A stretch of 34,119 nucleotides of DNA. Origin: Terriglobia bacterium (GTDB taxonomy: Bacteria > Acidobacteriota > Terriglobia > Bryobacterales > Bryobacteraceae). Position numbers and translations under genes: made by a program. The stretch spans positions 1-34,119 of the forward strand of contig JAJPIT010000120.1 of NCBI GenBank assembly GCA_021324615.1. The letters run 5' to 3'. Under the pieces are notes generated by a model. The model saw only the letters and a list, made by a program, of their open reading frames with translations. It ran no database searches and had not been told where the DNA came from. Position 1 is the stretch's first letter. Every line of letters starts with the position of its first letter. Positions 5,706 through 33,924 of this stretch are shown piece after piece.

Positions 5706-7361
5706 ATGCGACGCCCCGGAAACTACCGCGTCCCGGCCGGGCTGGCGGTCGCAATTGGCGCCGCTGTATTGGCCAGTTGCGCGCTCACCACTCCCAGACC
5801 TCAACAGTTCCGCAGCTTTTTCGCTCCGCCGCAGAACCAGCAGCCCCCGGTCAACAACGAAGAAACCATCCCGGAGCCGCCGCGGCTGAACGGGGATCCT
5901 TACGGCAATGAGATGCCGTCGATCCCCGGCGGGATTCGGGATATTCCGCGCCCCAACGACTCGGATTTTTTGCTGAAGAGATCCAATGACCGGTTCGCGG
6001 CGGGAAAGCAGGCGTTTGAGGAAGGCCGCTTCAAGGACGCCCGCCGGGAGTTTGACCAGGCCATCGAGTTGCTGCTGGCCGCTCCGGAAAACGTTCCCGA
6101 CCATCCCGCCATCGAGCGCCGCCTGGAAGATCTGACCGAGACGATTTACCGCTACGACCTGGACGAGCTTGCCGCATCCGAGCCGGACGATCCGGTGTCC
6201 TACGATCAGGCCCCGCGCGACCGCGTTCTGGAAATGACTTTTCCGGTGGATCCCAGCCTGCGGAACAAGGTCCTGGAACAGGTTAAGGCCACCGCCTCGC
6301 AGTTGTCGCTGGAGGAGAGCGACGCCGTGGTCGGCGCCATCCATTTCTTTTCCACCGAGCGGGGCAAGAAGATCGTGGCCGCGGGACTTCGGCGGCAGGG
6401 CCGCTACAAGGAGATGATCGAACGGATCCTCGCCGAGGAGGGTCTGCCGCAGGAGCTGATCTTCGTGGCGCAGGCCGAATCGGGATTTTTGCCGCGCGCC
6501 ATTTCCAATAAATCGTGCGTCGGCCTGTGGCAGTTCGCCAAGTTCCGCGGCCGGCAGTACGGGTTGAACCAGACTCCGGCCACTGACGACCGTATGGACC
6601 CGGAAAAAGCGACGCGGGCCGCCGCGCGTCACCTGCACGATCTCTACGATCACTTCGGCGACTGGTATCTGGCGCTGGCGGCCTACGATTGCGGTCCGGC
6701 ATGCGTGGATCATGCTGTCATGAGAACCGGTTACGCGGATTTCTGGACCCTGCGCCGGCTCAATGTCCTGCCCAAGGAGACCGCCAACTACGTTCTGGTG
6801 ATCCTGGCCATGACCATCATGGCCAAGAACGCCAAGGATTACGGCCTGGATGGGATCGATATGGACCGGCCGGTGGAGTTCGATACCATCGAACTGCAGA
6901 CGCCCACGCATCTGGCGCTGATCGCCGACGCCGTGGACCGCCCGATTAGCGAGCTGAAGGAACTGAACCCGGCGCTGCTGAAGCCCGTCGCTCCGGCCGG
7001 CTATTCGCTGCATGTTCCGAAGGGTACGGTGGCGGCGGTGGAGTCGGCGTTCGCGGTGGTACCACCCGGCCGCCGCGCTTCGTGGCGCCTGCATCGGGTG
7101 CAGGATGGCGAAACGTTCGCCGCGGTCGCAAAACGGTATAAGGCCCAGGTCGAATCGCTCGCCGCGGCCAATCATCAGACGCTGCCCGAACCGGGAGAGT
7201 GGATGGTGGTGCCGGTCTCCTATCCGGGGGATCGTCCGGCGCGGCCGGCGGCGGCGCACACGGCCGCCCGGCGAAAGACCGCGGGGCATCGCAAAACGAC
7301 CGCGGTGGCCCGGGGATCCGGCAAGCCTCAGACGCACAGCGCGTCCGGCAGCGAAGAATAG
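5706..7361 (+). CDS. LysM-containing lytic murein transglycosylase lipoprotein (MltD-like)
   Basis: Predicted outer-membrane-anchored lytic transglycosylase that cleaves peptidoglycan glycan strands. 551 aa: lipoprotein signal with lipobox LASC (Cys25), a Pro/Gln-rich linker (about 26-85), a helical repeat-like region (about 90-240), then the SLT catalytic domain. The catalytic Glu is E258 in 'AQAESGFLPRAIS', followed by 'CVGLWQFAKF' (family consensus is close to 'GLWQF') and 'DWYLALAAYDCG'. Two LysM-like segments follow (about 398-440 and 455-500, the second 'HRVQDGETFAAVAKRYKAQVESLAAAN'), then a basic Ala/Arg/Lys-rich tail. The extra Cys residues around the active site (Cys271, 329, 333) are unusual for MltD. 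The ATG at 5706 has only a weak GAAG upstream. MltD-like is an assignment by layout. Confidence 0.9.
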   Translation: MRRPGNYRVPAGLAVAIGAAVLASCALTTPRPQQFRSFFAPPQNQQPPVNNEETIPEPPRLNGDPYGNEMPSIPGGIRDIPRPNDSDFLLKRSNDRFAAGKQAFEEGRFKDARREFDQAIELLLAAPENVPDHPAIERRLEDLTETIYRYDLDELAASEPDDPVSYDQAPRDRVLEMTFPVDPSLRNKVLEQVKATASQLSLEESDAVVGAIHFFSTERGKKIVAAGLRRQGRYKEMIERILAEEGLPQELIFVAQAESGFLPRAISNKSCVGLWQFAKFRGRQYGLNQTPATDDRMDPEKATRAAARHLHDLYDHFGDWYLALAAYDCGPACVDHAVMRTGYADFWTLRRLNVLPKETANYVLVILAMTIMAKNAKDYGLDGIDMDRPVEFDTIELQTPTHLALIADAVDRPISELKELNPALLKPVAPAGYSLHVPKGTVAAVESAFAVVPPGRRASWRLHRVQDGETFAAVAKRYKAQVESLAAANHQTLPEPGEWMVVPVSYPGDRPARPAAAHTAARRKTAGHRKTTAVARGSGKPQTHSASGSEE

Positions 7362-16453: not shown

Positions 16454-16942
16454 ATGAAATTCTCAACTCTCTTTCTTTCCGCGGCGCTCGGAGTGGGAAT
16501 GCTGGCCGCGCAAACCGCCACTCCGCCAGTCAGCGCCGCTCCGCAGGAAAACACGCAACGCACCGGACGGCAGAGGATGCTCCAGAGGCTCGCCTCGGAC
16601 CTGAATCTGACGCCGGATCAGCAGGCCAAGGCCAGACAAATTTTCGGCGAGTCCTGGCGGCAGCGCCGGGCGATCGCGCCCCAGCTCCGCGAGGAACGCA
16701 AGGCCATTCTCACGGCGATCAAATCGGATAACACCGCCGAGATCGAGCGTCTAATCCAGCGGAATTCGCAATTAAACGCGCAGGCCGCCGAAATTCACGC
16801 CAAGGCGATGGCCCGGTTCTACGCCATCCTGAATCCCCAGCAAAAGGCGAAGATGGATCAGAAGCTCGCGCGTTTGATGAACCCGATGGCGCCCGCCCGC
16901 CATGCGCGCCCGTCCGGGCAGCCCTCCGGCAGCCGCTCCTGA
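16454..16942 (+). CDS. Spy/CpxP-like periplasmic protein (copy 1)
   Basis: 162 aa. Signal peptide MKFSTLFLSAALGVGMLAA with cleavage near AAQ. The mature part is largely helical with LTxxQ-type motifs: 'DLNLTPDQQAKARQI' and 'ILNPQQKAKMDQKL', characteristic of the Spy/CpxP chaperone and metal-stress family. The C-terminus is Pro/Arg/Ser-rich. Members act as periplasmic chaperones or sensors in envelope stress. TAGGAG lies upstream of the ATG, at the long end of usual spacing. It is followed 69 bases later by a paralogue. No two-component or sigma-E gene is next to the pair. Confidence 0.82.
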   Translation: MKFSTLFLSAALGVGMLAAQTATPPVSAAPQENTQRTGRQRMLQRLASDLNLTPDQQAKARQIFGESWRQRRAIAPQLREERKAILTAIKSDNTAEIERLIQRNSQLNAQAAEIHAKAMARFYAILNPQQKAKMDQKLARLMNPMAPARHARPSGQPSGSRS

Positions 16943-17011: not shown

Positions 17012-17464
17012 ATGAAGGTTTGGCAAATCGCCCTCTCTCTGCCTCTTGTAGCATCGCTTTGGGCGCAGCCGCCGCAAGGCCGCCGCGGCCCCGCGAATCT
17101 GGAGAACATGCTCGCTCAGCGCTTAGGCCTGAACGCCACTCAGCAGAACATGTTGCACACCGCGCTCGAAGAGGAGCGGACGCAGATCCGGGGAATGATG
17201 CAGCAGAGGCAGGCGCTGCATCAGAGCCTGGTGGAAGCGATCAAGGCCGGCAACGCGGACCAGATCGACCAGGTAACCCAGCAGATCGCCTCCCTTGATC
17301 AACAAAGAAGCGCAATTCACGCCAAGGCCATGATGAAGTTCTACTCCGGGCTCACCGCCGATCAGAAGACCAAGGTCGGGCAGAACCTGGAAATGCTGCT
17401 CGGCCCGGGCCGCCTCGGCGGCGCCGCGCTGGCGCGTCCGCGGCGCACCCCGCCGCCCCAGTAA
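17012..17464 (+). CDS. Spy/CpxP-like periplasmic protein (copy 2)
   Basis: 150 aa. Signal peptide MKVWQIALSLPLVASLWA then QPPQGRRG. Helical, Gln-rich mature protein with 'RLGLNATQQNMLHTAL' and 'GLTADQKTKVGQNLEMLL' in place of the LTxxQ motifs. It is clearly paralogous to the gene before it: both share a central 'IHAKAM-x2-FY' block followed by a degenerate LTxxQ. AAGGAG precedes the ATG. Same strand and short spacing suggest an operon; the pair likely arose by tandem duplication, with divergence in both tails (this one ends in a Pro/Arg tail). Confidence 0.8.
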   Translation: MKVWQIALSLPLVASLWAQPPQGRRGPANLENMLAQRLGLNATQQNMLHTALEEERTQIRGMMQQRQALHQSLVEAIKAGNADQIDQVTQQIASLDQQRSAIHAKAMMKFYSGLTADQKTKVGQNLEMLLGPGRLGGAALARPRRTPPPQ

Positions 17465-24277: not shown

Positions 24278-25675
24278 TCATGCCCGGCGGCTTCCGGATT
24301 CAGCAGGCCGCAAGAGGTGTTTTTGCACCTTGCCCAGGGCGTTGCGCGGCAGTTTTTCGATCACTTCGAAGCGGCGCGGAACTTTGAAGGACGCCAGATT
24401 TTCGCGGCACCGCGCCTCCAGCTCCGCCACCTCTACCTCGCGCGCCAGCACGATATAGGCCACGGGGACCTCGCCGCGCAGGCGGTCCGCCGCGCCGACT
24501 ACCGCGGCCTCGGCCACTTCCGGCTGCTCCATCAAAAACTCCTCGATCTCCCGGGGATAAATGTTAAAGCCTCCGGAGATGATCAGATCACTGCGCCGTC
24601 CGCGGAGGGTGTAGTAGCCGTCCTCGCTTCGCTCGGCGAGATCGCCGGTTTTGAACCATCCATCCTCGAAGGCGGCGCGCGTGGCGTCCTCGCGCCTCCA
24701 ATATCCGGAAAATACGTTGGGACCCTTGACCCACAGCTCGCCCGTTTCGTCCAGGCGCACGGAGACTCCGGGCAGCGGCAGCCCGACCGTTCCCGCGCGG
24801 CGCTCGCCCGCGTAAGGATTCGAAATATTCATGAGCGTTTCCGACATTCCGTAGCGCTCTAAAATCGTGTGGCCGAAGCGCGCGCGAAAATCCTCGAGCA
24901 CCTGCGCGGGCAGCGGCGCCGATCCGGAAACGAACAGCCGCATCTTCGCCCCGATGGCCCGCGCCGTCTCCGGCGGCGTCTCGAGCAGGCGGACGTACAT
25001 GGTCGGCACGCCAAAAAACAAAGTGGGCTCGAATTGTTTGAAGTGATCGATCGCCGTGGCGTGATCGAAGCGTTCGAGCAGGCGCATGCGGCATCCGGAG
25101 ATGAGCCAGCAATGCACGCCGTTGCCGAGCGCGTGCACATGAAACAGCGGCAGCGCCAGCAGGAACCGGTCGCGCTCGGTGATCTGCCAGCAGGCCGTCA
25201 GATTCACGCCGTTGGCCGCAAAATTGTTGTGCGAAAGGATGGCTCCCTTGGAAGCGCCGGTGGTGCCGGAAGTGTAAACCAGGGCCGCCGGCGCGTCGCC
25301 GTCCAGATGCGGAAAATTCGCGGCCGGCTCGGTTTCCGAGCTCAGCCCGGCCAGATCCTTCTCGGTGACGAAAAGCTTCGGCTCCGCGTCGGACAGGATG
25401 TGGGAAACTTCGCGCCCGCGATACAGAATATTGACGGGAACGAAGATTACGCCCAGCTTGACGCAGGCCAGAAACAGATCGATCATCTCGATCCGGTTGG
25501 CAAGCTGAACGCATAAGCGATCGCCCTGCGCCAGCCCGCGGTTTTGCAGAGCGCGCGCCATGCGATCGGCGCGGGCGCCGATCTCGCCGAAGGTGTATTC
25601 GCGGCCGGCCCATTCGAGGCCGGCGATATCGGCGCGAGCCTTTATCGAAAGATCGAAGAGTTGATTGAGGTTCAC
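24278..25675 (-). CDS. AMP-forming acyl-CoA synthetase, MatB/ACSF3-like
   Basis: 465-aa ANL-superfamily enzyme that adenylates a carboxylic acid and transfers it to CoA. Core motifs: 'YTSGTTGASKG' (134-144), 'ERYGMSET' (273-280), 'GWFKTGDLAE' (339-348), 'RRSDLIISGGFNIYP' (360-374) and the catalytic Lys449 in 'PRNALGKVQK'. The short length and 'NISNPYAGERRAGTVGLPLPGVSVR' closely resemble malonyl-CoA/methylmalonyl-CoA synthetases (MatB, ACSF3), so a dicarboxylate substrate is likely but not certain. The start is a GTG at 25675, 12 bases after the stop of the M1 peptidase, so the two are probably in one operon. It converges on gap with a 13-base gap. Confidence 0.85.
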   Translation of the reverse strand: MNLNQLFDLSIKARADIAGLEWAGREYTFGEIGARADRMARALQNRGLAQGDRLCVQLANRIEMIDLFLACVKLGVIFVPVNILYRGREVSHILSDAEPKLFVTEKDLAGLSSETEPAANFPHLDGDAPAALVYTSGTTGASKGAILSHNNFAANGVNLTACWQITERDRFLLALPLFHVHALGNGVHCWLISGCRMRLLERFDHATAIDHFKQFEPTLFFGVPTMYVRLLETPPETARAIGAKMRLFVSGSAPLPAQVLEDFRARFGHTILERYGMSETLMNISNPYAGERRAGTVGLPLPGVSVRLDETGELWVKGPNVFSGYWRREDATRAAFEDGWFKTGDLAERSEDGYYTLRGRRSDLIISGGFNIYPREIEEFLMEQPEVAEAAVVGAADRLRGEVPVAYIVLAREVEVAELEARCRENLASFKVPRRFEVIEKLPRNALGKVQKHLLRPAESGSRRA

Positions 25676-27569: not shown

Positions 27570-27590
27570 ACCTGGATCATGTCTCCAGGT
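27570..27590 (-). terminator. Possible weak terminator overlapping the speA stop
   Basis: ACCTGGA (27570-27576) and TCCAGGT (27584-27590) form a seven-bp stem with a seven-base loop that contains the speA stop codon. On the minus strand the stem is followed by AATTTAGTG rather than a real U-tract, so termination would be weak. Between here and the M1 peptidase start (27446-27569) I see no other signal. Confidence 0.25.
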
Positions 27591-29511
27591 AGGTATAGCC
27601 GTTCAGTCCCTCCTCATAAAACTTGAGGAGCATACCGGACTCCTCATAGCCGATGCGTCCTTCGCGAACAGCAGCCTCGACGTCTTTGCGGAATCGCTCC
27701 AATAGCGCTTTCGATTGGAACTGCACGTAGTCGAGCACCTCGCGGACCGTATCGCCCTGAATCACCGCGTCCAGCACCACCGCGTTGCGCTCGTCCAGGC
27801 GGACGTGCACGGCGTTGGTGTCGCCGAACAGATTGTGCAGGTCGCCCAAAATCTCCTGATAAGCGCCCACCAGAAACGCGCCGAGAAAATACGGCTCGCC
27901 GTTGAACGGATGCAGCGGAAGCGTCTTCTTCACGTCGCGGCGGTCGATGAACTGGTCCACCTTGCCATCGGAATCGCAGGAAATATCGCCTAAAATGCCA
28001 TGCCGGAACGGCTCTTCGTCAAGCCGGTGAATCGGCATGATCGGAAAAAGCTGCTTCACTGCCCAACTGTCCGGCAGGCTTTGAAACAATGAAAAATTGC
28101 AGAAGTAAGTGTCGGAAAGAAGGCTGTCCAGGCCCTCCAGCTCTTCCGGATAATAGTCGAGCTCCTTGGCCAGTTTCTGAATCTTGCGGCAGATCACCCA
28201 AAAGATGCTCTCCGCCCAGCTTCGCTGCTGCAACGGCAGATATCCGAGGCTGAACAGATTCAGCGCCGAATCGAGCGCCTGCTGCGCGTCGTGAAAACTT
28301 TCGAGAAGATTCTTGCTGCTGAGCCCGCGCAGCGTTTCCTTCAAATCGATCAGCGGCTGCTCGACGTCGTCGGGAATATCGGGCGACGTTTCGGCGTCGC
28401 CGAACCCGGTGACGCCCAGAACGTTGAACACCAGCACGCTGTGATAGGCGGCGATGGCGCGGCCGCTCTCGCTCACGATGGTCGGATGCGGCACCTCGGC
28501 TTCGTCGCACACGCTCTGGATGTGGTAGACCACGTCGTTGGCGTACTCTTGCAGCGTATAGTTCACGCTGGACTCGAAATCGGTCTGCGAGCCGTCGTAA
28601 TCGATTCCCAGTCCCCCGCCGACGTCCATGTACGATAGTCCCGCGCCGGCGCGCTTCAACTCGACGTACACGCGAACCGCTTCCATGACCGCGCCCTTGA
28701 TCTGCCGGATATTGGTGATCTGGCTGCCCAGATGGAAGTGCAGAAGCTGGAGGCAGTCCTCCATGCCGGCGGCCTTTAATTGATCGAGCGCGCGCAGAGC
28801 TTCCGTCACCGTCAGGCCGAATTTCGAGCGATACCCTCCGGACGATTTCCAGCGTCCCGACCCGCGGCTGGCCAGCTTGATCCGCAGCCCGATCACCGGC
28901 CGCACGCCCACGCGCGCGGCGTGCTTCTGGATCAGATCCAGCTCGGTGTATTTCTCGACGACGGGAATAATGCGCCGGCCGATTTTGGCGGCAAGCATCA
29001 CCATCTCGATGTACTCGTCGTCCTTAAATCCGTTGCAGATGATCGGCGTCTCGTTGTCGGCGATGGCCAGCACCGCCAGCAGCTCCGGTTTCGAGCCGGC
29101 TTCCAGGCCGAACTTGAACGGGCGGCCGTATTCAAAAACCTCCTCCACCACTTCCCGCTGCTGATTCACTTTGATGGGATAAACGCAGCAGTAATCCCCC
29201 TTATAGTTGTGCTCGGCGATGGCGTTTTGGAACGCCTGGTGCATCTCCCCCAGCCGGTGCTGCAAAATTTCGCCGAAGCGCAGCAGGATCGGCAGCGAAA
29301 TGCCCCGTAGCTGGAGATTGTCCACCAGTTGCTTCAGATCGATGGCCCGGTTGGCGTCCTTATTCGGATGCACCCAGATGTGACCGTTGGCGCCGACCGA
29401 AAAATAGCCCTTGCCCCAACTGGCGACATCGTACAGCTCGGCCGCCTCCGCGGTCGTCCAGCGATCGGCCGGCTCACGGACCGTCGCGCCATTTGTCAGA
29501 ACAGTAGCCAT
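27577..29511 (-). CDS. speA: Biosynthetic arginine decarboxylase
   Basis: PLP-dependent fold-III decarboxylase converting arginine to agmatine, the first step of the agmatine route to putrescine and spermidine. 644 aa, close to E. coli SpeA (658). Landmarks are the PLP Lys114 in 'CVYPIKVNQQ', 'RFGEILQHRL', 'LHFHLGSQITNI', 'YMDVGGGLGIDYDG', 'SESGRAIAAYHSVLV', and the C-terminal 'LDERNAVVLDAVIQGDTVREVLDYVQF'. The start ATG at 29511 follows an A-rich leader with no good SD. No speB or aguA is in the window. A 134-base intergenic region precedes it. Confidence 0.96.
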   Translation of the reverse strand: MATVLTNGATVREPADRWTTAEAAELYDVASWGKGYFSVGANGHIWVHPNKDANRAIDLKQLVDNLQLRGISLPILLRFGEILQHRLGEMHQAFQNAIAEHNYKGDYCCVYPIKVNQQREVVEEVFEYGRPFKFGLEAGSKPELLAVLAIADNETPIICNGFKDDEYIEMVMLAAKIGRRIIPVVEKYTELDLIQKHAARVGVRPVIGLRIKLASRGSGRWKSSGGYRSKFGLTVTEALRALDQLKAAGMEDCLQLLHFHLGSQITNIRQIKGAVMEAVRVYVELKRAGAGLSYMDVGGGLGIDYDGSQTDFESSVNYTLQEYANDVVYHIQSVCDEAEVPHPTIVSESGRAIAAYHSVLVFNVLGVTGFGDAETSPDIPDDVEQPLIDLKETLRGLSSKNLLESFHDAQQALDSALNLFSLGYLPLQQRSWAESIFWVICRKIQKLAKELDYYPEELEGLDSLLSDTYFCNFSLFQSLPDSWAVKQLFPIMPIHRLDEEPFRHGILGDISCDSDGKVDQFIDRRDVKKTLPLHPFNGEPYFLGAFLVGAYQEILGDLHNLFGDTNAVHVRLDERNAVVLDAVIQGDTVREVLDYVQFQSKALLERFRKDVEAAVREGRIGYEESGMLLKFYEEGLNGYTYLET

Positions 29512-29645
29512 TGCATTTTTAGTGTGCTTCCATTTGCCCCGGAGGGCAAGTGCAAAAGGACTGCTGTCCCCACTTTTTTGAAAATTTTTCGCGCTTCGGC
29601 CCCATGACCGCGCCGGACGCCGCCCGCGCCGTCCCGGCAGCCCGC

Positions 29646-30095
29646 CTATTCGATCCGCTGGTAGGTGGCGAAGGTCACGCTGGTCGTCTTGCCCTCGGCG
29701 TCCTGATGCATGTAAATAATGCCGAGCGTGTTGTGATCCGGCGATAACACGTTCGTCAGGATCTGCGTCACCCGCCCGTTCTTCTTGTACACGATCTCGT
29801 TCACCGCCGGGCTGAGCTCGCGCACGGCTCCCGAATCGGCGCCCGGGTTCCCGGTGATCGGCTCATCCTTGCCGTCGAAGTTGGTCACGTAGCCCCATTC
29901 CGACTTGACGCCTTGCCGGTTCACCGACTCAACCGTGATCTTCATGCCATGATCGCCGTAAGGCGCGTACGTCATGATGTTCGATTGTGGCGCCGGAGCC
30001 TCCGATTTCAGTTTCCATTTTCCAAAGCGCGGAGTCGGGTCCGCGGCGAACGCCAGGGCGGCGCTCATCGACACTGCCAGCAAAAGGTTTCGCAT
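29646..30095 (-). CDS. Small exported protein, unknown function
   Basis: 149 aa. Signal peptide MRNLLLAVSMSAALAFA then ADPTPRFGKWKLKSEAPA. The mature part is rich in predicted strands: 'IMTYAPYGDHGMKITVESVNRQG', 'SEWGYVTNFDGKDEPITGNPG', 'NEIVYKKNGRVTQILTNVLS' and 'LGIIYMHQDAEGKTTSVTFATYQRIE'. 'G-x-W-K-L' openings and 'DGKDxPITGNP' are shared, in my recollection, by small secreted proteins abundant in acidobacterial genomes; no function is known. It follows the paralogue at 30120 by 24 bases on the same strand and is probably the last gene of that operon. Confidence 0.78.
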   Translation of the reverse strand: MRNLLLAVSMSAALAFAADPTPRFGKWKLKSEAPAPQSNIMTYAPYGDHGMKITVESVNRQGVKSEWGYVTNFDGKDEPITGNPGADSGAVRELSPAVNEIVYKKNGRVTQILTNVLSPDHNTLGIIYMHQDAEGKTTSVTFATYQRIE

Positions 30096-30119
30096 AGAAA
30101 CCAGCTTACTGCCTGCCGC

Positions 30120-31094
30120 TTACTTTTTGTCGGTGCGGGATTCCATGCGCCGCGCGCCGCCCATGATGTCCTGCATGGCGTAGTTGCCCTCATGGCAGGC
30201 ATATTCGTAGACGGGGCCGGCCGTGGCCAGGAACGGATACTCCACCGTCCAGGGGCGCGTGAAGGTGGCCGGATCCTCCATCGTCGCACGGTACAGAATC
30301 GTGTTCGCATCGACGCGCTGGAATCGCTCGATCACGTGCAGGTTCTCGCTCGATCCGTGGAAGCGGACTTCCGGCCGGAAGTTCGTGGTGTCCACTACCA
30401 GCGTGTCGCCCTCCCAGTGCCCGATGGAATCTCCCAGCCACTTCTTCACGCCGGAAGCGTCGTGCTGCTGGTTCATCCGGATCACACGCACATCGTGAAC
30501 CATCTCGACCAGGATCATGATCGTATCCGGCGTCTGGACGATCTGATAGTTGTTGTTGTAAAGCACCGGCAGCATCGGCGGCCCCGCCGTGGAGCCGAAG
30601 CCGATCAAGCAGCGCTCCGATAACGGCCGGTTCTTCACATCATCGAAGTTGAAAAACTCCCGCATCTCCTCCGCCATGCGCTTCTTCGCCGCATCGGTGA
30701 GGGGCGGAACGTGGCCATCCGGCGGATCGATGATGAGCGAGGTGCGCTTCACTCCATCGACGCGCGCCAGCTCCGAACCGCGGTCGAGGAACAGGGCGTT
30801 GTATCCGCCGGTTCCTGCCGAGCCCGCCGCGCGAATGATTTTGCCGTCCGAAGCGCCGTCCTCGGCCTTCAGGTCCTGGGCCTCGGCCTGTTCCCACTGC
30901 CTGGCTTCCGCATCGCTGATCGTCAGAGACTTGTACTTCGCCGGCCGTTCCAGCGGGGTGAGCGTGGCGTTGGTCCACACTCCCTGAAGATCCGGATGAC
31001 CGTCCGGGGTGCGGGGTATCGGCGCCCTTTTCTGCGTCTGCGCAAGCAGGGCGAGCGATGCAAACGGGATCAGGGCAAGGAAGCGAAGTTTCAC
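30120..31094 (-). CDS. Exported 'PDGHPDLQGVW' family protein, paralogue 1
   Basis: 324 aa from a GTG at 31094, chosen because GGAGG lies seven bases upstream and a signal peptide follows (KLRFLALIPFASLALLAQ). The in-frame extension to 31202 crosses the promoter and operator and is rejected. It shares with the gene at 31660 the N-terminal 'PDGHPDLQGVWTNA' element and a C-terminal half with 'MVHDVRVIRMNQ', 'WLGDSIGHWEGDTLVVDTTNF', 'HVIERFQRVDANTILYRATMEDPATFTRPW'. I know this as a frequent uncharacterised secreted family in soil acidobacteria. The fold looks beta-rich and the role is unknown. An operator-like palindrome and TTGACA lie upstream. Confidence 0.85.
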   Translation of the reverse strand: MKLRFLALIPFASLALLAQTQKRAPIPRTPDGHPDLQGVWTNATLTPLERPAKYKSLTISDAEARQWEQAEAQDLKAEDGASDGKIIRAAGSAGTGGYNALFLDRGSELARVDGVKRTSLIIDPPDGHVPPLTDAAKKRMAEEMREFFNFDDVKNRPLSERCLIGFGSTAGPPMLPVLYNNNYQIVQTPDTIMILVEMVHDVRVIRMNQQHDASGVKKWLGDSIGHWEGDTLVVDTTNFRPEVRFHGSSENLHVIERFQRVDANTILYRATMEDPATFTRPWTVEYPFLATAGPVYEYACHEGNYAMQDIMGGARRMESRTDKK

Positions 31095-31136
31095 CGGAGA
31101 CCTCCTACCTGTTGGCGTACCACGCTTACCGGCGTC

Positions 31137-31155
31137 TGTCAACCGACCGGTCGGT
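31137..31155 (-). promoter_or_regulatory. Operator-like palindrome and -35 box of paralogue 1
   Basis: A perfect 14-bp palindrome, ACCGACCGGTCGGT, covers 31142-31155. On the minus strand it runs directly into a consensus -35 TTGACA (31142 down to 31137), sharing one base. The matching -10 at 17-base spacing (TACGCC, 31119-31114) is poor. The same palindrome recurs at 32479-32492. Short CCGG-centred palindromes of this kind are typical of TetR-family operators; the cognate regulator is not in this window. Confidence 0.65.
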
Positions 31156-31205
31156 CGAAACACAGCAGGCCAAGCGGGCCAGGCGGCTTTCCCGCAGGGC
31201 AAAAA

Positions 31206-31631
31206 CTATTTCTTGTCGTCCTTCTTCTCGTCGTATGGCGCGCCGGTGCCCTGCGAGCCCAGGAACAGCTTCTGCCCGTCAGGCAGCGTAATATCGCGGC
31301 CGTTGGCGCGATTGGAGCCATCCTTGGACTGGTAGCCGTCCACGATCACTTTGGTCCCGATGGGGATCGTGTTTTTGTTGAAGCCGCGGCGCAACAGAAC
31401 GTTCGGGCTGCCCGCCTCAACCATCCAACTGGTCACCTTCCCGTCCGGCCCGGTGACGTCCACATGGATCCAGGAATGCGGGTTGATCAATTCCACCTTG
31501 GTCAGCGTCCCTTCCAGGTGGATCGGGGTCTTGGCGTCAAACTCCGCCGCAAAGGCGTGATGCGCCCACGCCGGCGCCGCCGCGCCGATCAGTCCCGCGA
31601 TCCCCAACACCACCGCAAGCTTGCTGCTCAT
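31206..31631 (-). CDS. Exported DUF6152 family protein
   Basis: 141 aa. Signal peptide MSSKLAVVLGIAGLIGAAAPAWA then HHAFAAEFD. The rest matches DUF6152: 'TPIHLEGTLTKVELINPHSWIHVDVTGPDGK', 'MVEAGSPNVLLRRGFNKNTIPIGTKVIVDGYQSKDGSNRANGRDITLPDGQKLFLGS'. The mature N-terminus carries a His-His pair and the protein is small and beta-rich; a metal- or haem-related role has not been shown. AAGGAG precedes the ATG at 31631. It lies between the two paralogous exported proteins on the same strand (28 bases after the upstream one), so it is part of the same unit. Confidence 0.9.
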   Translation of the reverse strand: MSSKLAVVLGIAGLIGAAAPAWAHHAFAAEFDAKTPIHLEGTLTKVELINPHSWIHVDVTGPDGKVTSWMVEAGSPNVLLRRGFNKNTIPIGTKVIVDGYQSKDGSNRANGRDITLPDGQKLFLGSQGTGAPYDEKKDDKK

Positions 31632-31659
31632 GTCGTACTCTCCTTGCTCTTCAGTCTAC

Positions 31660-32439
31660 TTATTTCGTCGGCTTTTTGCTGTACTGCCCGTACATCAGTT
31701 CTTCCACAAACTCGACGCACTTAAAATCCATCAACTGTGCGTTCTTTTCGACGTGCCGGTACAGCGGCATGCTGATCTTCCAGGGCCGCGAAAACACTTT
31801 CGGATCCTCTATGGTCGCCTCATACCACAGCACTTCGGGACTACGCAGCGTGTAGCGCTCCACCACGTGCAACTGATCGCTGTGGTAGTTCCCCGAACGG
31901 TCAAACCAGGTCCGCTCATCGAGCCCGGTCACGTCCACCACCAGCGTATCGCCTTCCCAGTGTCCCACCGACTGGCCCATCCAGGTATCGACCGGCGCCG
32001 GACCCGGGTCCTTCAAAAAAATATTGCGAAAGGCGCCATCGTACTCATAGGCAATCGCGATCTCCCTGTCGCTTTGAAAAATCTGGAAGGGATAAGGCAT
32101 GTAGGTGGCGCGCGGAACGCCGGGCAGATAACAATAAATCTCTGGATCCAGCTTCAACCGGTTCTGATAGTTCTGCTTCCGCTTTTCCAGCGCCTCCGGC
32201 CTGTAGGGAATCTTGCCGCCTTCGACCACGCTCAAGCCGCCTGGTTCGGCTCCTTCGGCTCCCAGGGCCAGCACCGGTCCGGCCTGCGCATTGTGATCTT
32301 CCAGATCCCAGTTGGCGGTGTTCATCGCCTGCCAGATTCCGTTAAGATTGGGATGCCCGTCGGGACCGCGCGGCGGCTTGTAAGTCGCCTGCGCTGCCAG
32401 GACCACCGGCAGCAGCGCAGCGAGGATCCACGTTCTCAT
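31660..32439 (-). CDS. Exported 'PDGHPNLNGIW' family protein, paralogue 2
   Basis: 259 aa. Signal peptide MRTWILAALLPVVLAAQ. Shares 'GPDGHPNLNGIW', 'SVGHWEGDTLVVDVTGLDERTWFD', 'LHVVERYTLRSPEVLWYEATIEDPKVFSRPW' with the gene at 30120, but lacks some of that gene's central region and has 'DPEIYCYLPGVPRATYMPYPFQIFQSDREIAIAYEYDGAFRNIF' instead. The ATG at 32439 has no SD and the predicted transcription start lies only a few bases upstream, so the message may be leaderless. It is driven by the promoter with the second operator palindrome and is followed by the DUF6152 gene. Confidence 0.85.
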   Translation of the reverse strand: MRTWILAALLPVVLAAQATYKPPRGPDGHPNLNGIWQAMNTANWDLEDHNAQAGPVLALGAEGAEPGGLSVVEGGKIPYRPEALEKRKQNYQNRLKLDPEIYCYLPGVPRATYMPYPFQIFQSDREIAIAYEYDGAFRNIFLKDPGPAPVDTWMGQSVGHWEGDTLVVDVTGLDERTWFDRSGNYHSDQLHVVERYTLRSPEVLWYEATIEDPKVFSRPWKISMPLYRHVEKNAQLMDFKCVEFVEELMYGQYSKKPTK

Positions 32440-32449
32440 ATCCGAGTAT

Positions 32450-32492
32450 CTTTTAGCAAACCCGCCCGCCTATGTCAAACCGACCGGTCGGT
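32450..32492 (-). promoter_or_regulatory. Promoter with operator-like palindrome for paralogue 2
   Basis: On the minus strand: perfect palindrome ACCGACCGGTCGGT (32479-32492), immediately followed by consensus -35 TTGACA (32478-32473), a 17-base spacer and -10 TAAAAG (32455-32450, four of six). The expected start is near 32443, about four bases before the ATG at 32439. The palindrome is identical to that at 31142-31155 and overlaps the stop codon of the upstream haem protein gene. Confidence 0.75.
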
Positions 32493-33784
32493 CAGCCTGG
32501 GCGGCGTTCTCCCTGCCGGAGGACCACGCCCTGGCCCGTCTGCTGAAAATATGCAGGCAAATTCGGCTTGGTGTCGCGCAAAATTTCTAAAATCGCCCGC
32601 CGGTCCGCGGCGGAAATCCGGGCGAACCTGGGGCTTTGATCCTGCCCGCTCAGCACCTCATACAGCCGGCGATAAACCCTGCCGCGCACGGCATCCGGCA
32701 GCGCGTCGAACTGCGCGCTGTAGATTGCATAACTGAGCGGATACCGGAACAGCCGCGTGCGCAGATCGAAGTCGCGCAGGGAACGGCCCTTGCGGTCGCG
32801 CGGCCCGCGCTCGGGAAACGTCCGGGTGAACGTGGACGCGCCTTCGATCGGTTCCCGAAGCGGCTCTTCCTCGGCAAAAAGCATGTACGCCACGGTATCC
32901 TCGGTCTCCGAGCGGAGCGTCTGCTCATCGGCGCCCATCCGCGCCAGCCACCCCAGGCGCGTGAGCAAGTTCTGCATCTGGGTCTGATGCTCGAACGTCA
33001 TCAGCGCCACGATATCGCTTAAAGGCGTCAGATAACCGGCCGGATTGAAAAACCGCGCCAGGCTCGTCAGATTCTGCTTTCCTTCGTTGTCGAGCGTTTC
33101 CGGCTCGGCCGGATCGGGCGCCACCGAATTGGCGCGGTCCCGCTGCTCGCCGCTTTTGGCCGTGATGTACCAGCCGCCCCAGCGGTCCTCGAATCTGGTC
33201 CGGTGATCGGTGATAATGGCGCCCAGGCGCTGCGGCTCCCCCAACGGGTTGGGAATAACGGAGCCGACGAACATTCCGGGCACGCCATTGGTGGCCGCCC
33301 CGCGATGGCAGTTCAGGCACACCTGCGGGCGGTTAAATACCGGCTCGCCGGAACTGCTGCGAACCACGTCGTAGAAAATCACTCCCTGCCGGGGATCGAG
33401 CGAGGCCAGCTCCACGCCAGTGCCGCCGCGAACCCATCCGGCGGCAACGTCGTCCGTGAAATAAATCGCGCGCGGATTCCGCGGCGAGATTTTCGCTGCT
33501 TGAAAACTTCCTTTCGCGAACGGCAGCGCTTGCGAATTCGTGTTGATGCCCAGATTTTCGAGCAGGCTCGGGAGGTAACCGAGGCCATCGTCGCGCCAGG
33601 CAAGTTTCCTTTTGCCGGCGTCGATTTGCCGGATGAGCCGCGAAACGGGATCCTCCAGCGACTGCGCCGGCGTCTGGAAATAGCCAATCGCAGGGTGGTC
33701 TATCGGTAAATCGCTTTTGTAAATCTGCGCCGGACAGGTTGCAGCTCCGGTGGCGATGATCCACCATGCGAAAAAAGCCCGCAT
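32492..33784 (-). CDS. Exported mono-haem c-type protein, unknown function
   Basis: 430 aa. Signal peptide MRAFFAWWIIATGAATCPA then QIYKSD. One haem-c attachment motif, CLNCH (Cys156-His160), with a candidate distal Met171 in 'VPGMFVGS'. The N-terminal part includes 'HPAIGYFQTPAQSLEDPVSRLIRQIDAGK' and 'YLPSLLENLGINTNSQALPF'; the segment after the haem carries 'PLGEPQRLGAIITDHRTRFEDRWGGWYITA'. The C-terminal half is helical. It is far longer than a simple cytochrome c, and I recognise the layout only as an uncharacterised secreted haem protein of soil bacteria; electron transfer in the periplasm is the natural inference. It is upstream of, and on the same strand as, the paralogue/DUF6152 group. 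The ATG at 33784 has only a weak SD. Confidence 0.82.
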   Translation of the reverse strand: MRAFFAWWIIATGAATCPAQIYKSDLPIDHPAIGYFQTPAQSLEDPVSRLIRQIDAGKRKLAWRDDGLGYLPSLLENLGINTNSQALPFAKGSFQAAKISPRNPRAIYFTDDVAAGWVRGGTGVELASLDPRQGVIFYDVVRSSSGEPVFNRPQVCLNCHRGAATNGVPGMFVGSVIPNPLGEPQRLGAIITDHRTRFEDRWGGWYITAKSGEQRDRANSVAPDPAEPETLDNEGKQNLTSLARFFNPAGYLTPLSDIVALMTFEHQTQMQNLLTRLGWLARMGADEQTLRSETEDTVAYMLFAEEEPLREPIEGASTFTRTFPERGPRDRKGRSLRDFDLRTRLFRYPLSYAIYSAQFDALPDAVRGRVYRRLYEVLSGQDQSPRFARISAADRRAILEILRDTKPNLPAYFQQTGQGVVLRQGERRPG

Positions 33785-33924
33785 TTCAACTCGCTCGCAA
33801 CTCTATCGTCGCGGAGCCCCGGCGCCGGGCAAGCAGACACCGGCCCTGGTTGTCTCCGGCCCGCGGCCCCGGCATTCTGTGGCGCTGCCGCGCAGCCGCC
33901 ACGAGAGCGATGATCCTGCCCAGC

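Follow-up and report, generated by a model that had tools for sequence, protein, structure and literature searches.

The window, by which we mean the whole stretch of DNA analysed here (34,119 nucleotides, contig JAJPIT010000120.1 of a Terriglobia bacterium of the family Bryobacteraceae), contains a cluster of five genes on the minus strand. A gene for a 430-aa protein (32492-33784) lies upstream of the gene for an exported protein, PDGHP2 (31660-32439), and 28 bases past the latter comes a gene for a DUF6152 protein (31206-31631; PF19649, E-value = 1.6e-34). Then follow a second exported protein, PDGHP1 (30120-31094), whose start codon is probably the GTG at 31094, preceded by AGGAGG, and, after a 24-base gap, a small exported protein of 149 aa (29646-30095). 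The DUF6152 gene probably belongs to the PDGHP2 operon, and the gene for the 149-aa protein is probably co-transcribed with PDGHP1. PDGHP1 and PDGHP2 are 34% identical, which bears out their description as paralogues in an earlier reading of this DNA made from the sequence alone (hereafter the sequence-only reading).

DUF6152 is the only Pfam family found among the five cluster genes. The PDGHP proteins and the 149-aa protein matched no Pfam or NCBIfam family, and no solved relative of the PDGHP pair was obtained below an E-value of 0.5. A structure prediction of PDGHP2 from two window sequences reached a mean pLDDT of 46.7, and no paper on DUF6152 turned up in a full-text literature search. 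The genus is rich in PDGHP proteins, which seem greatly expanded in some members: eight of them have more than 100 first-pass candidates each, and the genome G013 has 194 and 251 (43 and 36 scored, respectively); the present genome and that of the relative G010 have five each. Elsewhere in the window, two genes of the LTXXQ/heavy-metal-resistance family are arranged in tandem (16454-16942 and 17012-17464).

The perfect 14-bp palindrome ACCGACCGGTCGGT occurs exactly at 31142-31155 and at 32479-32492; the second copy has one base in common with the stop codon that ends the 430-aa gene upstream. The next-nearest matches, at 6861 and 27330, have three mismatches and are the only others in the window at up to three. 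Read on the minus strand with their flanks, both copies give GACCGACCGGTCGGTT. Each directly precedes, on that strand, a TTGACA hexamer, as the sequence-only reading had stated: the -35 box of the PDGHP1 promoter (31137-31142) has base 31142 in common with the first copy, and that of the PDGHP2 promoter (32473-32478) abuts the second. There are no further TTGACA hexamers on either strand of the window. At a spacing of 17 bp follow the presumed -10 hexamers, the weak TACGCC for PDGHP1 (31114-31119) and TAAAAG, with TGC before it, for PDGHP2 (32450-32455). The placement of the palindrome relative to TTGACA is equal within 1 bp at the two promoters, and the putative operators are centred at about -41.5 and -42.5. 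Both are short dyads in or beside a core promoter, as expected of TetR operators.

A generic sigma-70 scan of positions 29600-33900 scored no promoter, probably owing to the poor quality of the two presumed -10 hexamers; by eye, the place of the PDGHP1 hexamer is taken in relatives by TATCTT (L092, L095) or TATCCA (L094). Two terminator-like matches were obtained, and the palindromes are not among them, so that we discarded a reading of the palindromes as intrinsic terminators. About 10 bases separate the presumed -10 hexamer from the start codon of PDGHP2, with no clear Shine-Dalgarno sequence between 32439 and 32478, and its mRNA is possibly leaderless or near-leaderless.

The two copies are also the sole exact copies in the whole assembly (3,936,149 bases in 127 contigs, all searched; 99.3% complete), which extends the earlier claim of their absence elsewhere in the window. 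With an order-2 model fitted to the window sequence, 0.038 exact copies are expected per assembly, and the probability of at least two is 7e-4. The sequence-only reading held a chance duplicate in the same geometry to be very unlikely. The repeat taken by itself is a roughly 2% event: some perfect 14-bp palindrome was present twice in 6 of 300 simulated windows. The weight therefore rests on the geometry and on the genome-wide uniqueness. Perfect 14-bp palindromes are about as frequent in the window as in the simulations (8 in total versus a mean of 6.0), the six others occurring once each, at 1440, 3922, 4699, 26402, 27146 and 30368.

Both window sites are identical to an experimentally tested operator of a TetR-family regulator. 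The same 14 bp constitute the PaaR operator of the promoter PpaaA in Burkholderia cenocepacia, which was tested with mutated reporters (PMC2770484) and was restated with a gel-shift follow-up (PMC9493321). PfmR (TTHB023) of Thermus thermophilus binds the similar site CCTACCGACCGGTCGG with a KD of 0.3 nM, and an earlier PfmR consensus is quoted as TACCGACCGNTNGGTN (PMC7022988). Both PaaR (PMC2770484) and PfmR (PMC7022988) act as repressors. Moreover, the complete 16-mer GACCGACCGGTCGGTT is found in a genome of the same family (locus L016) in the promoter of a TetR gene, the product of which belongs to the TetR_C_28 subfamily and exhibits the recognition helix SKGGLTHHF; a neighbouring gene is TolC-like by eye.

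The sequence-only reading saw no regulator gene at the locus. Indeed, a whole-genome TetR search places none on the contig of the window, and Pfam searches with 26 reading frames of the window, a set that excludes those at 24278-25675 and 27577-29511, detected no regulator domain. The genome has four TetR_N genes, the next match having an E-value of 0.07. One of them, L024 (contig C87, 40949-41563), encodes a 205-aa protein with a TetR_C_24 domain and the recognition region LTKAGIYHYI. Its nearest solved chains are 5K7F (E-value = 6e-44), which we take to be AibR of Myxococcus xanthus, 3DCF, and 3VPR (E-value = 1.7e-30). The chain 3VPR is named as PfmR (PMC10636190), and the genome thus encodes a homologue of the PfmR/AibR group. 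The other three proteins, L021, L022 and L023, have recognition helices different from that of L024. The best upstream motif matches of these three genes have 5 or 6 mismatches, that of L024 itself having 6, and L021 has a palindrome of its own, CAATCGTACGTATGATTG.

No copy of the palindrome was found before the L024 gene or before its orthologue in G010 (L272). An autoregulatory copy before the regulator gene is usual in the PfmR/AibR group, not universal. The promoters of L024 and of the G010 orthologue have an element TTGACAATT...TTGTCG in common, and since the L024 promoter has this element and lacks the palindrome, L024 may use a different operator. In full, the element reads TTGACAATT-N-TTGTCGTAAGCTCCGGCTTT in both genomes. 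L024 is flanked by a PMT_2 gene and by a gene for an outer-membrane beta-barrel protein, rather than by acyl-CoA genes.

A search for L024 homologues across 395 genomes of the phylum, in which the motif played no part (E-value<=1e-25), yielded at least 82 matches in 67 genomes, with at most seven candidates scored in most genomes. We examined the 29 best homologue loci outside the present genome, one per genome, a set that leaves 52 further non-own matches aside. The motif was present with at most two mismatches within 300 bp before the HTH in 25 of these 29 loci, twice exactly. At the same loci the reversed motif was found 0 times, and about 200 palindromes with shuffled halves gave a mean of 0.03 and a maximum of 1. 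Before other TetR domains the motif occurred in none of 35 entries (21 distinct). Since 14 of the 29 loci come from one genus, the count by genus, 11 of 15, is also given. The homologues without the site are L300, L303, L316 and L322. Among four homologues at 43-44% identity, L273 and L274 have the site (their neighbours are LeuA-like by eye), and L275 and L276, with the same recognition helix, lack it. When these four, L024 itself and its G010 orthologue are included, 27 of 35 have a site, the misses being the four loci just named from the 29, together with L275, L276, L024 and L272.

The homologue sites give the consensus TACCGACCGGTCGGTA, with a preference for TACC...GGTA. Both window sites read GACC...GGTT; they match the consensus exactly in the core and imperfectly at the flanks, with outer bases G...T in place of T...A, which, like the missing copy before the L024 gene, counts against L024 as their reader. 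A weight matrix of the homologue sites scores the window sites at 23.3 and 16.9, against a training range of 15.4-28.9 and a next score in the window of 10.2. Five of the homologue loci, with clear reading frames (L298, L299, L301, L302 and L321), were sent to Pfam, which identified genes for acyl-CoA dehydrogenase, ETF or AMP-binding proteins next to the regulator gene.

The association is also seen when starting from the palindrome. An L024-like gene is present in 27 of the 39 genomes containing the exact 14-mer versus 40 of the 356 without it, a genome-level figure inflated by shared ancestry; counted by genus, the proportions are 14/25 and 30/187 (Fisher p = 3e-5). The exact 14-mer stands just before TetR genes at L243 (LTKPGLYHYI), L246 (LTKAGIYHHI) and L247 (LTKAGLYHHI). 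It is often not near a TetR gene: where it lies next to TGAC in named genomes, a TetR HTH was detected at most 300 bp downstream in 5 of the 119 loci listed (random rate 0.9%), a count made with a small home-made HMM that found 15 TetR frames, of which only the recognition helices were used.

Two further observations concern these genomes. At 14 of 14 loci from 14 genomes of another genus of the phylum (g99; L257-L270), the exact 14-mer occurs in the conserved context CTCTACCGACCGGTCGGTCTGTTACACTG, at L257 between Sir2-like and MoxR-like genes as judged by eye; the small HMM detected no TetR domain at these loci, and each genome has an L024-like TetR gene elsewhere. In addition, single frames of about 440 or about 680 residues with two TetR HTH domains were found (L279, L281, L285, L286, L290 and L292), in the genomes G013, G018, G019 and G020. 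These resemble the tandem TetR proteins of the Mce3R type.

PDGHP and DUF6152 genes are kept together in five relatives of the same genus: G005 (locus L093), G011 (L097), G015 (L092), G016 (L094) and G017 (L091), the last with the PDGHP2 and DUF6152 part of the cluster. The DUF6152 gene lies beside that of PDGHP2 in L091, L093 and L097, and near it in L092 and L094. Of the five orthologous promoters of PDGHP2, three (L091, L092 and L094) have TTGAC[A/T] and TGCTA[A/C]A at a spacing of 17 bp, and lack the palindrome; this -35/-10 layout was not seen in L093 and L097. Given this palindrome-less core promoter in orthologues, the palindrome looks like a lineage addition upstream of an older promoter. 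Lack of conservation of the palindrome before orthologues, named with the sequence-only reading as an outcome that would refute it, was indeed observed and speaks against its local regulon: at up to two mismatches there is no copy in 58 homologue loci from relatives (L026-L054 and L056-L084, some overlapping) or in nine longer stretches from relatives, and two longer stretches from the present genome, which bring those scanned to 11, added no site. The exact 14-mer is absent from the 22 other members of the genus, in which 15 one-mismatch sites were counted versus 43 for the reversed pattern.

The five relatives with the cluster or a part of it have no L024 homologue at E-value<=1e-15 and no exact 14-mer, and their cluster stretches contain no site at up to two mismatches; L024 could be missing from the assemblies of G005, G015, G016 and G017 because these are 79-93% complete. 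G010 carries L024 at 90% identity. Its best PDGHP2 match is 98.5% identical to another paralogue of the present genome, on contig C13, so that G010, judged from PDGHP2 alone, apparently lacks the cluster. Among the genus genomes compared, the cluster and L024 occur together in the present genome only, and the operators likewise. It looks as if such operators arise only where regulator and target genes meet. This co-occurrence, seen in one genome, would explain why the sites are not conserved, and we read the joint absence of site and regulator in relatives, whose assemblies are partly incomplete, as a lineage-specific operator gain.

The interpretation of the palindromes as TetR-family operators, proposed in the sequence-only reading, is supported by the identity with the PaaR operator (PMC2770484), by the similar PfmR sites (PMC7022988) and by 25 of the 29 homologue loci, and we hold it with high confidence. 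L024, which is unlinked to the cluster, is with a probability of roughly 60% the reader of both palindromes and would act as a TetR repressor. As the best reading overall we propose TetR repression of the acyl-CoA type, exerted at operators that this lineage has acquired.

The sites could be read by another TetR protein, namely L022, L023 or the product of an unassembled gene such as one like L016. The occurrence of the window 16-mer in the promoter of the L016 TetR gene fits this alternative, as do the several TetR subfamilies whose genes sit behind the 14-mer. We consider it rather unlikely, given that the assembly is nearly complete with four TetR_N genes passing the cut-off, that L021, L022 and L023 have other recognition helices with upstream matches no better than 5 mismatches (a point weakened by the 6 of L024), and that L021 has its own palindrome. 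A LacI-type regulator can practically be dismissed. LacI-type sites also often exhibit a CG-centred palindrome, in keeping with the CCGG-centred symmetry seen here, but a search of the assembly for LacI genes gave no match at E-value<=0.001, while the control search was positive in 9 of 14 known genomes.

Activation instead of repression deserves consideration on account of the geometry, because a protein centred at about -41.5/-42.5 would occupy the class II activator contact position on RNA polymerase. The weak -10 hexamers and the promoter scan without a scored promoter agree with a need for an activator. However, the two -35 boxes match TTGACA perfectly and stand at a 17-bp spacing, the core persists in three orthologous promoters that lack the palindrome, and the characterised readers of such sites, PaaR (PMC2770484) and PfmR (PMC7022988), repress; activator sites are therefore very unlikely. 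Only slightly less probable still is a repeat read by no protein today, arisen as a by-product, for instance of a short gene conversion between paralogous promoters. The flanked genes are indeed paralogous and the orthologous promoters lack the motif, but the identity does not extend beyond the 16-bp block and the -35 box, the neighbouring bases differ, and the block is a known operator (PMC2770484). Pure chance, for all that the simulations produced repeated palindromes, is highly improbable in view of the genome-wide uniqueness, the location of both copies at the only two TTGACA boxes of the window, and again the identity with a known operator (PMC2770484).

Under acyl-CoA-type repression by L024, a TetR dimer bound to either 14-bp site would lie over the neighbouring -35 box or close against it, and would thereby deny RNA polymerase access to the promoters of PDGHP2-DUF6152 and of PDGHP1 with the 149-aa protein gene. 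A ligand of the acyl-CoA type, suggested by analogy to PaaR, PfmR and AibR and by the genes neighbouring L024 homologues, would release the repressor. The release might extend beyond the cluster to genes with weaker sites, one for an acyl-CoA dehydrogenase and two for Oar-like outer-membrane proteins.

These additional candidates lie on other contigs, and the 'small local regulon' of the sequence-only reading is for this reason probably wrong. A site with two mismatches is located 18 bp before the start of the acyl-CoA dehydrogenase gene (C117:58515). Another weaker site follows the TTGACA-TATAAA promoter of an Oar-like outer-membrane gene (C75:177), and a third precedes the TTGACA of another such gene (C75:72636); G010 has a one-mismatch copy in the promoter aligned to the latter. 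The C117 site and two PfmR sites (PMC7022988) have ACCGACCGGTTGG in common. The three sites were chosen after looking, and their number is not above background: the assembly contains 24 further sites at up to two mismatches versus 49 for the reversed pattern, so that the weaker sites could be due to chance. By a crude test, 22 of the 24 overlap mechanical reading frames of at least 150 codons on either strand, as do two of the three candidates.

We tentatively envisage, as a possibility well short of an even chance, a newly wired acyl-CoA-responsive regulon. Among the compared genomes of the genus, the only one that combines the PDGHP2-DUF6152-PDGHP1 cluster with a PfmR/AibR-like repressor may have acquired two identical, perfect operators, placed alike in the two promoters. 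A family of secreted proteins would thereby have come under a switch of the fatty-acid type, along with an acyl-CoA dehydrogenase and Oar-like outer-membrane proteins. If this is true, PDGHP and DUF6152 proteins help to take up or handle lipids or other substrates activated with CoA. This would be a first functional hint for these exported proteins, for which we found no described function, and it yields a testable regulator and a testable ligand class for their genes. The operator and the regulator class are already known. What is new, to the extent of our literature search, are the target genes and their wiring, which is apparently recent.

Among known systems, the NemR-type operator invoked by the sequence-only reading is a poor match. 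The NemR box is a TAGACC-N4-GGTCTA dyad; like the present sites it is a G/C-rich TetR palindrome, but it differs in sequence and spacing. The outer TA/TA is absent at both window sites and the dyad centre differs, and the solved chains closest to L024 are 5K7F, 3DCF and 3VPR; we thus abandoned the comparison. AibR (5K7F) is the closest solved relative of L024, with MTKAGLYHHI in the recognition region versus LTKAGIYHYI. It differs in that it regulates isovaleryl-CoA synthesis, according to the title of the paper describing it.

PfmR is likewise a sequence relative of L024 (3VPR), and PfmR sites such as CCTACCGACCGGTCGG have most of the core in common with the window 14-mer; in contrast to the situation described here, they often lie over the transcription start, and the targets are enzymes of fatty-acid and phenylacetate metabolism (PMC7022988). 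PaaR (BCAL0210) differs in that the Burkholderia site lies between the -35 and -10 boxes, whereas the window sites adjoin the upstream side of -35, and in that the genes controlled in Burkholderia are those for phenylacetate, as opposed to exported proteins without described function here. The likeness lies in the identical 14 bp, in a TetR-type repressor acting at a site in the core promoter, and in the control of several separate gene clusters by one regulator (PMC2770484).
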